From: Nitrospirota bacterium
Lineage (GTDB): Bacteria; Nitrospirota; Thermodesulfovibrionia; Thermodesulfovibrionales; UBA6898
NCBI GenBank assembly: GCA_016235245.1
Contig: JACRLO010000024.1
Location: forward strand, 1-39,757
Direction: 5' to 3'
DNA length: 39,757 nt
A program made the position numbers and the translations under genes. The first letter of the stretch is position 1. Every line of letters begins with the position of its first letter. Below the pieces are notes generated by a model. It was not told the origin of the DNA. It worked only from the letters and a program-made list of their open reading frames with translations, and did no database searches. This document shows positions 19,091 through 23,814 of the stretch, in pieces.

Positions 19091-19945
19091 CTACCTGATG
19101 CCGTAGCCGAACATCGTATAGAAAAAGTGACCGTTGATCGTATAGGAGTCCATGCCCCAGCTATCAGGGATGGGCCAATACGGTTCGCCGTCCCTGATAG
19201 CCTTGAGAGCTGCATCATCAAGCATCTTATATCCTGAAGTTCTTATTAGTTCCAGAGCCCCTAGCCTTCCATCCTTCCTGATAGTGAAGCTGATTTTAAG
19301 GTCTCCATAGAGTCCTTTTTTGCTCGCTTCAGGCGGATACTCCCAGATGCTCTCGATCTTCTCCTTCAGTTTTCTCATATATCCGGCGTACCGATAATCC
19401 TGCGATTCAAAGGTGATTTGGTCATTTTTTTTCTTAGCACCATCACCTTTTCGAGCCGCATCGCCTCTCGCATTAATGTCGAAAAGTTTTTCCCGATTTG
19501 ATGCCTCACGCTTGCTTGCCTGGCTGCTGCTTTTGAGGAAGCCAGGCTTGGAAGAACTCTCTTCAGGGGGTTCATCGCCATGGGCCTCGCTTTTTCCAGG
19601 CTTTGGCGATGCTCCTTCGGGGAGTGGCTTCCCGTCGTCCTTCCCTTGCCCCGGGACCATAGGCTTATCCTGTGAGGGCGAGGTTTTTGGAGGAATCTTG
19701 GTAACAGGAGGCAGCGGTTTCAGGGATTTGGGAACGACTGGAAGAGGTCTGGCGTCGGGCGGGACCGGAATCGGTTTTGCCGGCGGCGAAGGCAGTATCT
19801 CAGGGCTTTTTGCCTGCTCAGGGGTAACGAGTTGGGTAAAAAATTCCCGCGCCTTACGGGTCTTTTGCTCCGGCAGAAAATATATGCCGATGAGGATGAT
19901 CGCATGGAGTGCTACGGAAATAAGCAGAAACCTTTTTATGGCCAA
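19091..19945 (-). CDS. tonB: TonB-type energy transducer
   Basis: Inner-membrane protein that couples the proton-motive force to outer-membrane receptors. One N-terminal transmembrane anchor (about 6-24), a long proline/lysine-rich periplasmic linker (about 45-140), a charged segment, and a C-terminal TonB domain (about 188-284) with IRKDGRLGALELIRTSGYKMLDDAALKAI. Translation starts at TTG with AGGAAAGAG upstream. A TTGAAA-N16-TATACT promoter precedes it. exbB and exbD are not in the window. The C-terminal extension after the usual end (DSWGMDSYTINGHFFYTMFG) looks typical of gliding/Ton-like variants rather than E. coli TonB, so TonB-family is the safe assignment. Confidence 0.85.
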   Translation of the reverse strand: MAIKRFLLISVALHAIILIGIYFLPEQKTRKAREFFTQLVTPEQAKSPEILPSPPAKPIPVPPDARPLPVVPKSLKPLPPVTKIPPKTSPSQDKPMVPGQGKDDGKPLPEGASPKPGKSEAHGDEPPEESSSKPGFLKSSSQASKREASNREKLFDINARGDAARKGDGAKKKNDQITFESQDYRYAGYMRKLKEKIESIWEYPPEASKKGLYGDLKISFTIRKDGRLGALELIRTSGYKMLDDAALKAIRDGEPYWPIPDSWGMDSYTINGHFFYTMFGYGIR

Positions 19946-20054: not shown

Positions 20055-20561
20055 TCAGAAACTGGGGGGGAAAGGACAGTGAATCTTTGCCTTTCTGAGC
20101 GAAGAAGGTCCTGCGAGGTAATAGGCAGCGATCTTAAAAAAGAAATTTCCGACCGTGCCAGATACTGTTCCGTCCCTGTTTTCTGACCATATCATGGTCT
20201 TATGGAGGTTGTTGATCGCGATGATAAGGTACACATGGTCAGCGCTCATTCCATCAACATCTTCCCGGCTGGGACGTGGCAAGCCCTTTTGAGGCCCAAA
20301 CTGCGTATGGGAATGAAAATCCCCGACAATCTGAAGTCTGTCCATCCGTTCGAGAATAGGCAGGATCTGCTTGTGGCTTCTGTCAAGGGATACAACGCCT
20401 TTCGGTTTTCTGTCGGCAGTCTGAAGGCTGTAGGCATGCTCCACAATATAACGATCCTTCAGCTTATAGCCGAGCAGAAAACCAAGACACTCTTTTTTGT
20501 ACACCTCTGCTGAACTCAGCAACAGATCTATAAAAGCGTTTTCTGATAAATAGACTCTCAT
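20055..20561 (-). CDS. JAMM/MPN+ metalloprotease-like protein
   Basis: A 168-residue stand-alone Mov34/MPN/PAD-1 (JAB) domain. The zinc-site residues are E24 (KKECLGFLLG), H83-S-H85 (GDFHSHTQFG), S98 and D101 (PRPSREDVDG). The spacing from the second histidine to the serine is longer than in the common HxHP..PSxxD form, and threonine replaces the proline. Bacterial JAMM proteins remove C-terminal extensions from ubiquitin-like sulfur carriers or cleave isopeptide-type bonds, but no ThiS/MoaD-like, E1-like or cysteine-synthase gene is adjacent. The ATG at 20561 overlaps the uspA stop as ATGA, which decides the start over an upstream TTG. Function beyond the fold is unknown. Confidence 0.85.
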   Translation of the reverse strand: MRVYLSENAFIDLLLSSAEVYKKECLGFLLGYKLKDRYIVEHAYSLQTADRKPKGVVSLDRSHKQILPILERMDRLQIVGDFHSHTQFGPQKGLPRPSREDVDGMSADHVYLIIAINNLHKTMIWSENRDGTVSGTVGNFFFKIAAYYLAGPSSLRKAKIHCPFPPSF

Positions 20562-21010
20562 TCCCAATGCTTAGGAAGGCGTACTGACAGAACAGGGCAA
20601 GGAGCATAGCGTACTACCTGCTCTGCGGTGCTGCCAAAAAGGAGCCTGTCAAGGCCGGTTCTGCCATGAGTTGCCAGGACAATAAGATCGATCTTGTTTG
20701 TTTCTGCAAACTTGGTGATCTCCTCATAGGGGATGCCTTTCATTACAACATGTTCAATGCCCTTGAACCCTCTCATCTCTTCGATAAAGGTCTTCTCAAG
20801 CTCTGTTTTCGCGCCTTTTTCGAGATCCTTATACATTTCTTCAACAGAGATGTGAGGGACATACCATCCTGTTGTTCTGGCAACGTCATAAATGACGTGC
20901 ATAAAGAACAGTTTTGCATCGTAGCGTTTTGCGAGATCCACGGCATACGGCAGAGCGTTCTTTGAACCCTCTGAAAAGTCAGTTGCAAAAAGGATTGTGT
21001 TGAGCTTCAT
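20558..21010 (-). CDS. Universal stress protein UspA family
   Basis: A 150-residue single Usp domain. It begins MKLNTILFATDFSEGSKNAL and carries the ATP-binding form of the motif, THGRTGLDRLLFGSTAEQVVRYAPCPVLSV, near its C-terminus, so nucleotide binding is likely. The frame is open upstream, but the ATG at 21010 has a strong GGAGGT site and starts one base after the galT-like stop codon. It is coupled by ATGA to the JAMM gene. Usp proteins respond to starvation or stress; a specific role here is unknown. Confidence 0.92.
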   Translation of the reverse strand: MKLNTILFATDFSEGSKNALPYAVDLAKRYDAKLFFMHVIYDVARTTGWYVPHISVEEMYKDLEKGAKTELEKTFIEEMRGFKGIEHVVMKGIPYEEITKFAETNKIDLIVLATHGRTGLDRLLFGSTAEQVVRYAPCPVLSVRLPKHWE

Positions 21011-21011
21011 C

Positions 21012-22043
21012 TTAAACCTCCCTAAGGTATTTGGCTGCGTCTTCAGGTGATGTCGGCAGAATATAAAAGCCTGATCCCCATTCAAATCCGCTTGTTCTTA
21101 AGAACCGCGGCATGATCTCAAGGTGCCAGTGAAAGTCCTCCCCGAGGGTGTGCCAATGGTCTTTTCGGGGAACCCTGTTTGGTGCAGAATGTATGAAGTA
21201 ATTATACGAAATGTTCGGAAAGAGTGCCTTCAGTTTTTTTATTGCAGAAGAGAGGATGAGAGCCAGGTCTTCAAGTTCGTCTGGACGAATATCCTGGAAT
21301 GCGCAGTTATGTCTTTTCGGCAGTATCCATGTCTCAAAGGGAAACTTTGATGCATAAGGGCAGAACGCCGCATAATGGCGCGTTTCGAGAATTACTCTGC
21401 TGCCGACCCTCAGCTCCTCGCGCATGACATCACAGAAGATGCATCGCTCCTTATAGGCAAAATACTGTTTGGCGCCATCGAGCTCTTCCTTGACCCTCTT
21501 GGGGATTACCGGTGTGGAGGCAAGGTGAGAAACGGGATGATCGAGATGGCTGCCGGCTGATATCCCGTGGTTTTTATAGATGAGGGTGTATCGCAGGCGG
21601 GAATCTTTTTCAAGGTCTGCAATGCGGTCCCTATACGTCTGGACAACGCGCGTCATCTGTTCAAGGCCCATGTTCTCAGGCTGGACATTATGGTAAGGTG
21701 ATTCAATGATAACCTCATTCGCTCCAATGCCGTTCATTTTGTCATACATGCCCTCGCCTCTTCTGCCGAGGTCTCCCTCAACCGTGAAGACAGGGTTGGT
21801 GTGTGGAATAACTCTGCTCCACCAGGCATCAGAAGCGCCTGTTGACGAAGTGTTCCGAATGCGCATGATCTCTCCCGCCGTCTCGCTCTCGCGGCCAGCG
21901 CAGAGAATACAGCCCTTATCGCTGAGGCGTTCAGAAGCAAGTTCCTGCCGGTATTCGGAGGGAGGAGCAGACTCACTGAGTACTGCTATCCATCTTCCCA
22001 GCAAGGGATCTTTTCTCAGTTCAGTGGGGGCAGTTTTTTTCAT
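21012..22043 (-). CDS. GalT-like nucleotidyltransferase lacking the usual nucleophilic His
   Basis: A 343-residue protein of the galactose-1-phosphate uridylyltransferase / ADP-glucose phosphorylase branch of the HIT superfamily. Visible zinc-site residues are C45-I-L-C48, H118 and H169. The C-terminal HWHLEIMPR block (305-313) and following GSGFYILPTSPEDAAKYLREV-type tail also match. The catalytic HxHxQ loop, normally like HPHSQ or HSHSQ, reads H169-P-V-S-H173 within a well aligned GSHLDHPVSHLASTPVIP stretch: the nucleophilic second histidine is valine and the glutamine is histidine. The DNA there is plain, so no frameshift is suspected. It may have another reaction or none. It overlaps coaX by 23 bases. 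Confidence 0.85.
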   Translation of the reverse strand: MKKTAPTELRKDPLLGRWIAVLSESAPPSEYRQELASERLSDKGCILCAGRESETAGEIMRIRNTSSTGASDAWWSRVIPHTNPVFTVEGDLGRRGEGMYDKMNGIGANEVIIESPYHNVQPENMGLEQMTRVVQTYRDRIADLEKDSRLRYTLIYKNHGISAGSHLDHPVSHLASTPVIPKRVKEELDGAKQYFAYKERCIFCDVMREELRVGSRVILETRHYAAFCPYASKFPFETWILPKRHNCAFQDIRPDELEDLALILSSAIKKLKALFPNISYNYFIHSAPNRVPRKDHWHTLGEDFHWHLEIMPRFLRTSGFEWGSGFYILPTSPEDAAKYLREV

Positions 22044-22791
22044 AGAGTATCTTTAATCCCTCTAAGGTCAGTTCCGGTTTAAGGAGATGAGGCCTTTTGA
22101 TAAAATTATTGACCAGGAAACTGTATCCTCCCGTTACTATCGTATTGAACATCAGTCCTGTTTCCGTCTCCATCTCTTCAATAAGCCTCTCAACAGCACC
22201 TGCCGTGCCTATTAATAGCCCTGACAGTATGCAGCCTGTCGTGTCCTTTCCAAGGACTGATTCAGGCTCTTTAAGCTCAACCTGTTTGAGCTTCGAAGTC
22301 TTTGCTCCAAGAGAGTCATTCATAAGGCCTATGCCCGGCATGATCGAGCCTCCGATATAACAGCCTTGCCCATCGACAACCGTAATCGTCGTTGCAGAGC
22401 CAAAATCTATTATCGCAGCCGGCCCTTGAAAAAGAGAAAAAGCCGCTGTTGCATTTGCTATCCTGTCTGTCCCGAGTTGTTCAGGAGCAGATATTCTAAA
22501 CCCTATTGCCGAAAGAGTACTGTCAAGAACCAGGATGTTGGTTTTTCCTTCTCCTGAAAGCCCTTTCAGGACTTTTCTGAAAACATTAGTATGGCTCGGG
22601 ACTACTGATGATATTATACCGTTGATAGCTGATTTTGCTATATTATTTTCTTTCATGTATGAAAGCAATAACAACTTATATTCGTCCTCTCCCTTTAAGG
22701 GATGGGTCGGAATACGCTGCATAAAAAGGCCATTGTCCAGGAAATAACCTATAGTTATCGAGGAGTTGCCGATGTCTGTTGCAATAAGCAT
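22021..22791 (-). CDS. coaX: Type III pantothenate kinase
   Basis: Phosphorylates pantothenate, the first step of coenzyme A synthesis. It is an ASKHA-fold kinase with DIGNSSITIG at residues 6-15, the pantothenate-site GTDRIAN block near 107-113, and IDFGSATTITVVDG as the second phosphate motif. Length 256 residues is typical. It follows birA after about 57 bases, and the paired order birA-coaX is common in bacteria. No ribosome site is evident before the ATG; a TATAAA lies about 17 bases upstream, so it may also have its own short-leader promoter. Confidence 0.96.
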   Translation of the reverse strand: MLIATDIGNSSITIGYFLDNGLFMQRIPTHPLKGEDEYKLLLLSYMKENNIAKSAINGIISSVVPSHTNVFRKVLKGLSGEGKTNILVLDSTLSAIGFRISAPEQLGTDRIANATAAFSLFQGPAAIIDFGSATTITVVDGQGCYIGGSIMPGIGLMNDSLGAKTSKLKQVELKEPESVLGKDTTGCILSGLLIGTAGAVERLIEEMETETGLMFNTIVTGGYSFLVNNFIKRPHLLKPELTLEGLKILYEKNCPH

Positions 22792-22848: not shown

Positions 22849-23814
22849 CTAAGATAGAAATGAAATATCTCCAGAACTGATAGTTTTTCGTTCGCCGGAG
22901 TGCATTCTCAGAATGAGCATACTATTTTCATCAATATCTTCAGCAATGCCTGACCAAGTGTCATCCCGCATGATGACTTTGATCTTTCGGCCCAACGTGG
23001 AAGAGTTTGTTCTCCATGCATCGAGCAAAGGCTTCTTCCCCTCTTTTTTTAGAATGCCATACCATTTTTCAAACTCCCTTAGCAGTTGAAGAATGATCTT
23101 GTTTCTCCGATGATTTTTCCCAGTCTCAATTTTTACAGATGTTGCAGTATCCTTTATTACTTCGGGAAGATTTCCGGCGTTCATGTTCACGTTCATCCCA
23201 ATACCGATAACGGCGACTGCTACCCTGTCAGGGTCCGCACGTACCTCGGTCAATATCCCGCCCAGTTTCTTATCGGACATAACCAGGTCATTCGGCCACT
23301 TGATCGATACGGCAATATTACATGACTTCTGCAATGTCAAAGCTCCTGCCACTGCAGCGACAATAGTAAGCATGGTCGTATCCCTCGGCTCAAGTTCAGG
23401 CCGGATTATCAGGGTTATATAGATGTTCTTGCCGGCCGGAGACTCCCATGTCCTGCCGAGCCTGCCCTTGCCTCTTGTCTGGTGGTCAGCCACAAGCACT
23501 GTGCCCGGCGCAATTTCACCTTTGGTCACAAGAGACATGGCAAGATCATTTGTGGACTCAACTGAATCATGAACAATGAGTCTCTTCCAGAGATCGCTTC
23601 TGCTATTCAGACGCAGGTAATCCTCGCCGAGGTCCGGTGCGCTTTTAAGGCAATAGCCCTTTGAAGGTAATGCCTCGATGATATACCCTTTATTTCTGAG
23701 TGCAAGAATTTTCTTCCATACCGCAGCTCGCGATATCCCCAGACGGTTGCTGATGTCCTGACCGGAAATGATATCATCAGCACCCTGGAGCAGACTGAGA
23801 ACCGATTCAGACAT
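22849..23814 (-). CDS. birA: Biotin--protein ligase / biotin repressor BirA
   Basis: Activates biotin as biotinyl-AMP and attaches it to carboxylase carrier proteins. It is the bifunctional form of 321 residues: an N-terminal winged helix (about 14-58, ISGQDISNRLGISRAAVWKKI) for DNA binding, and a ligase domain with GKGRLGR at 115-121 and the SIKWPNDLV block containing the active lysine. The C-terminal SH3-like domain is present. The DNA-binding domain implies control of biotin genes, although none lie nearby. It begins 37 bases after the hydrolase gene and precedes coaX. Confidence 0.96.
   Translation of the reverse strand: MSESVLSLLQGADDIISGQDISNRLGISRAAVWKKILALRNKGYIIEALPSKGYCLKSAPDLGEDYLRLNSRSDLWKRLIVHDSVESTNDLAMSLVTKGEIAPGTVLVADHQTRGKGRLGRTWESPAGKNIYITLIIRPELEPRDTTMLTIVAAVAGALTLQKSCNIAVSIKWPNDLVMSDKKLGGILTEVRADPDRVAVAVIGIGMNVNMNAGNLPEVIKDTATSVKIETGKNHRRNKIILQLLREFEKWYGILKKEGKKPLLDAWRTNSSTLGRKIKVIMRDDTWSGIAEDIDENSMLILRMHSGERKTISSGDISFLS

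Follow-up and report, generated by a model that had tools for sequence, protein, structure and literature searches.

What can a protein with the fold of galactose-1-phosphate uridylyltransferase (GalT) do once the histidine that carries the nucleotide has been replaced? This question is raised by galT2 (positions 21012..22043, minus strand), a gene in the 39,757-nucleotide stretch of Nitrospirota DNA analysed here (the window), which encodes a 343-residue protein. Both GalT halves are recognized in its product, which scores 37.2 bits against PF01087 (cut-off 22.1) and 47.6 bits against PF02744 (cut-off 29.2), and it also passes the NCBIfam model TIGR00209 (galT_1; 107.3 versus a cut-off of 102.1 bits). 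The AlphaFold2 model (pLDDT 85.8, pTM 0.86) has the two-half HIT fold along its full length, superposing on PDB 1z84 with a Z-score of 36.8 and an rmsd of 2.4 over 305 residues. The protein in 1z84 and 2h39, Arabidopsis ADP-glucose phosphorylase At5g18200, is the best solved relative (E 5e-52, 33% identity), while E. coli and human GalT (1hxp, 1gup, 5in3) superpose with a Z-score of about 34. By ancestry, the galT2 product is a paralogue of bacterial enzymes of the GalT and ADP-glucose-phosphorylase type. A search of plasmids returned only distant GalT relatives, and a literature search of incomplete coverage found no paper on GALT or histidine-triad pseudoenzymes or on Omnitrophota uridylyltransferases.

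The place of the HxHxQ catalytic loop is taken by HPVSH (residues 169–173; 21525..21539, minus strand), encoded by CAT CCC GTT TCT CAC. Aligned with about 140 homologues in addition to E. coli GalT and At5g18200, the protein has H169 at the E. coli zinc ligand H164, V171 (21531-21533, minus strand) at the nucleophile H166 and H173 at Q168, in agreement with the original prediction, which had described a GalT-like protein with exactly these replacements. In human GALT this histidine carries the nucleotide and the H186A variant is not uridylylated, while Q188 contacts the phosphate and ribose (PMC5081055). With an aliphatic residue in place of the nucleotide-carrying histidine, the chemistry of the family would no longer be possible, and we infer that the galT2 product is without nucleotidyl-transferase activity.

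The orthologue set was drawn from 61 related genomes together with a species-level genome collection. The gene is present in 25 of the 27 genomes examined of the window's family, and all 25 orthologues have Val, Ile, Leu or Ala at position 171, so that the case of a lone variant among close homologues retaining HxHxQ, which had been raised against the prediction, proved false. The codon itself is read correctly, since independent genomes of the same genus carry GTT (L005, L006), GTA (L008) and CTG (L011), and ATA and GCT occur in other genomes; an assembly error is excluded because the codons differ among genomes. Lone variation and sequencing error are thus both ruled out by the orthologues lacking His171 and their independent codons. 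In the sister group of eight, six likewise lack the nucleophilic histidine. The enclosing clade of 33 sequences, joined with bootstrap/SH-aLRT support of 97/99 when the loop columns are left out (the bootstrap being not fully settled), has V in 15, I in 8, L in 7, A in one and H in two at this position, a loss in 31 of 33. The recently lost enzyme that had been suggested as one outcome finds no support here, as the loss of the nucleophile is common to the whole family and most of its sister group.

It has been proposed that H173 might act as a stand-in catalyst, with the nucleophile shifted by two residues. A histidine does occupy this position in 13 of the 33 sequences of the clade, the two nearest relatives among them, but the other 20 have Y (8), L (4), Q (4), F (2) or others including S and N; four relatives of the same genus read HPLSQ and one clade member HPVSS. 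Since residue 173 varies, it is no conserved substitute nucleophile. We regard this explanation as scarcely credible. A HIT-type nucleophile at H307, in the HWHLE segment, was also considered and rejected: H307 is the counterpart of the iron ligand H296 in E. coli and equally invariant in GalT1, the intact paralogue, so it would explain nothing special to galT2.

The changes extend well beyond the loop. The original prediction had identified the altered loop within an otherwise preserved scaffold, but it missed the loss of both pocket arginines, of NKFP, of Ser161 and of an Asn, which are absent already from relatives whose loop remains HPHSQ. The RAKRP motif is represented by ESAPP (residues 24–28; 21960..21974, minus strand), which lacks a counterpart of E. 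coli R28 through a deletion and has a proline in place of R31, and the nucleotide-binding NKFP motif (E. coli N77-D78-F79) by HTNP (residues 81–84; 21792..21803, minus strand). At the positions of E. coli N77, F79, S161 and Q168 the galT2 product has H, N, H and H, and the clade is variable. Compared with the E. coli enzyme, H166, Q168, R28, R31, D78, F79 and S161 are all replaced or deleted, residue 81 (N77) is variable and H298 has become Glu, and At5g18200 keeps HSHSQ, an N-L-Y-P nucleotide motif, RAKRP, S181 and N334, all of which galT2 has lost. Across the 33-sequence clade R31 is replaced throughout, K78, F79 and S161 are replaced, and the Arabidopsis N334 equivalent is Leu in 33 of 33. 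N158, E321, Y327 and K157 remain conserved.

The wider GalT2 clade (73 sequences, 59 from Nitrospirota and 14 from Omnitrophota) allows these losses to be ordered. Six early-branching Nitrospirota sequences retain HTHSQ or HPHSQ and R28, with N77 already Ser and S161 changed to A, L or Q. In the next 53, the R28 equivalent is lost in all 53 and R31 in nearly all, together with most of NKFP, S161 and the Arabidopsis N334 equivalent; 20 of these still retain the nucleophile, but only eight of the 20 have Gln168 (the others having E, S, L, M, Y or G). The 33-sequence clade lies within the 53 and is where the nucleophile itself goes. Changes to the pocket preceded the disappearance of the catalytic residue, and the nucleophile was the last to be lost. 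As a pathway, the nucleotide-binding Asn and Ser161 would have been lost first, both pocket arginines, the remainder of NKFP and an Asn second, the Gln following the nucleophile third, and the nucleophile fourth. Syntenic orthologues survive that keep the nucleophile, lack the Gln or lack both residues, so that present-day genomes still record how an enzyme was retired step by step. The same order implies that relatives reading HPHSQ are unsafe evidence for GalT activity. Inside the nucleophile-less clade, one near-identical pair (L059 and L061) reads HPHSL, a His without the Gln; the histidine would either have returned once or been lost more than once.

The metal sites have been retained. 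The C45, C48, H118 and HWHLEIMPR elements described originally are all present. C45 and C48 (21900..21911, minus strand), H118 (21690..21692, minus strand) and H169, equivalent to the E. coli zinc ligands C52, C55, H115 and H164 and to C63, C66, H133 and H184 of At5g18200, are invariant in 33 of 33, as are C201 and C204 (21432..21443, minus strand), H245 and H305 of the second zinc site, which align with Arabidopsis C216, C219, H255 and H310. The counterparts of the E. coli iron site (E182, H281, H296 and H298) are E187, H285, H307 and E309, with Glu in place of H298, again in 33 of 33. H118, the C201/C204 pair and the H305-W-H307-L-E309 segment (21117..21131, minus strand) are invariant in all groups. 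The C-terminal half also aligns with FHIT (Z-score about 9.8), and HWHLEIMPR resembles the HxHxHxx motif of the HIT hydrolases FHIT and HINT; unlike in those enzymes, the middle histidine is more likely a metal ligand, as for E. coli H296, and the third is Glu. Further residues (Y156, R212, C228, C247, N289, T317, L329 and S332) are fixed in 33 of 33 but not in intact GalT1, as is the HWHTLG part of an insert, RKDHWHTLGED (residues 293–303; 21135..21167, minus strand), that is common to the GalT2 clade and a few other GalT-like proteins.

These observations bear on whether the protein is still an enzyme, catalyzing a different, non-covalent reaction such as the hydrolysis or phosphorolysis, with assistance from a metal, of a nucleotide or a phosphosugar without a His-nucleotide intermediate. 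Near or complete invariance of the metal sites, E321, N158 and Y327, and the clade-specific residues fixed in 33 of 33, which indicate new constraints on the protein, speak for this; the residues that contact the nucleotide phosphates in known GalTs, however, are lost and variable with no single conserved alternative, and a hydrolase signature was not found in the galT2 product. We consider such an activity unlikely, although the conserved N158, E321, Y327 and K157 may permit a slow or non-covalent reaction in the altered pocket.

Could the gene simply be decaying? Such decay would be consistent with the absence of galT2 from some relatives (G012, G025 and families f3, f6 and f10) and with one metagenome-assembled copy (L013/L039, genome G018) that carries an in-frame TAA early in the gene, close to residue 30. 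Against this, in ten genera of the family and in other families besides, the proteins have kept their full length and show no variation at the metal sites, and position 171 has remained aliphatic instead of varying randomly. Pairwise Nei-Gojobori estimates for unsaturated pairs give a dN/dS of about 0.06–0.15 (median 0.10), lower than that of the adjoining coaX (median 0.24); the medians for uspA, birA and the JAMM gene are 0.12, 0.12 and 0.08. The galT2 product is a constrained protein and is not decaying, and recent loss of an enzyme by gene decay is very improbable. The view of a scaffold preserved without its nucleophile, rather than simply decaying, is upheld by this selection together with the synteny and the metal sites. 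Loss of the gene in some lineages does imply that its role is not essential everywhere. In family f4, two genomes (G052 and G029; loci L161 and L162) keep coaX-uspA-JAMM and have cleanly lost galT2, and their relative G041 has a fast-evolving copy reading HPHSE (L128).

Taken together, loss of the catalytic residue in 31 of 33 sequences under purifying selection suggests that galT2 is probably a retained pseudoenzyme, stabilized by metal, in which the nucleotidyl-His intermediate would be impossible and which has a binding or partner role. The fold, metal sites and two-half architecture were retained under purifying selection, and the product would most likely act as a metal-stabilized binder of a small ligand or of a protein partner. 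The product lacks the defining catalytic features, and galactose-1-phosphate uridylyltransferase is therefore the wrong name for it despite its GalT fold and descent. Databases in which it is listed as a galactose enzyme probably misstate its function. The curated TIGR00209 model is an annotation trap, accepting a protein without the catalytic histidine, and automatic calls of galactose and nucleotide-sugar pathways in these Nitrospirota would rest in part on a protein unlikely to perform that chemistry.

The gene stands in a conserved operon. All on the minus strand, the cluster runs birA-coaX-galT2-uspA-(JAMM)-tonB: a biotin ligase gene (22849..23814) with which the conserved cluster begins, the type III pantothenate kinase gene coaX (22021..22791), which shares 23 bases with the start of galT2, galT2 itself, the universal stress protein gene uspA (20558..21010), whose probable ATG at 21010 lies one base from the galT2 stop, a Prok-JAB/JAMM metalloprotease-like gene (20055..20567) and a TonB-like gene (19091..19945) that ends the conserved cluster. 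The order birA-coaX-galT2-uspA is syntenic across the order, usually followed by the JAMM and TonB-like genes, whether or not the nucleophile is present. Genomes without galT2 mostly have birA-coaX-uspA or coaX-uspA with no gap in its place. G012 and G025 lack galT2 as well as the JAMM gene but retain uspA, which normally separates them. Among 61 genomes, 40 of the 47 with GalT2 also have the JAMM gene, compared with 2 of the 14 that lack GalT2 (Fisher p 2e-6, not phylogeny-corrected); this co-occurrence is a correlation and our best lead to a partner. The galT2 product probably shares a process with the JAMM and UspA proteins encoded nearby. In early-branching Nitrospirota (L064–L068), galT2 reads HTHSQ or HPHSQ and comes after birA-coaX; in L064 a response-regulator gene directly precedes galT2 and nadC precedes birA.

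An intact paralogue in the same genome, GalT1 (L001/L154), has the same architecture and metal residues and is 44% identical to the galT2 product, but keeps HTHTQ, NKFP and ERGKRP where galT2 is altered. It is encoded elsewhere, far from galT2, with valS and nadC ahead of it and a GT5 glycogen-synthase gene behind it, a position suggesting that glycogen-type nucleotidyl transfer is probably the job of GalT1. On the pseudoenzyme reading of galT2, it is GalT1 that would perform nucleotidyl transfer. A dead subunit could instead tune GalT1 from within a hetero-dimer. In the GALT homodimer an arginine from the opposite chain lies near the active site (PMC5081055); the human equivalent of the pocket arginines, Arg48, reaches in from that chain. 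GalT1 is present in 45 of 47 GalT2 genomes, the two exceptions being 70% and 83% complete; since GalT1 is near-universal, this co-occurrence says little. Moreover, the two genes are far apart and Nitrospirota GalT2 lacks both R28 and R31, so that completion of a GalT1 site in trans is unlikely and a hetero-dimer is not favoured. We judge this arrangement quite unlikely.

The Omnitrophota proteins, a sister clade, also have an altered NKFP, a lost nucleophile and intact metal sites, but differ in that the nucleophile has become Arg (HxRSQ, in 10 of 14), that the Gln and both pocket arginines (R28 and R31) are kept, and that the gene stands directly before an intact GalT1 gene in a fixed cluster, priA-def-fmt-galT2-galT1-gapdh. 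The His-to-Arg loss arose separately. Given the opposite-chain arginine of the GALT dimer (PMC5081055), retention of R28 and R31 makes a hetero-dimer a real possibility in this phylum, and these HxRSQ copies speak in favour of such an arrangement. A broader proposal is that GalT2 represents a novel type of HIT-fold protein, once a nucleotidyltransferase and now a sensor of a ligand or a regulatory partner acting with the JAMM protease and UspA, with the Omnitrophota branch independently inactivated and regulating its intact tandem neighbour; in our estimation this is improbable.

Tandem GalT pairs are seen at L072:3995-6091, L075, L093 and other Omnitrophota loci, where the loop of the HxRSQ copy is one to two residues longer. 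A second tandem GalT-like open reading frame is also found in Riflebacteria (L095:5006), on a long branch, with HSHSH at the loop and DSSP replacing NKFP. The genome of the window itself encodes a third GalT-like protein of the DUF4921 type, with HSHSQ (G000:C7:36781-37905; L155:5781-6905), adjoining genes for a CCG/4Fe-4S protein and RNase E/G.
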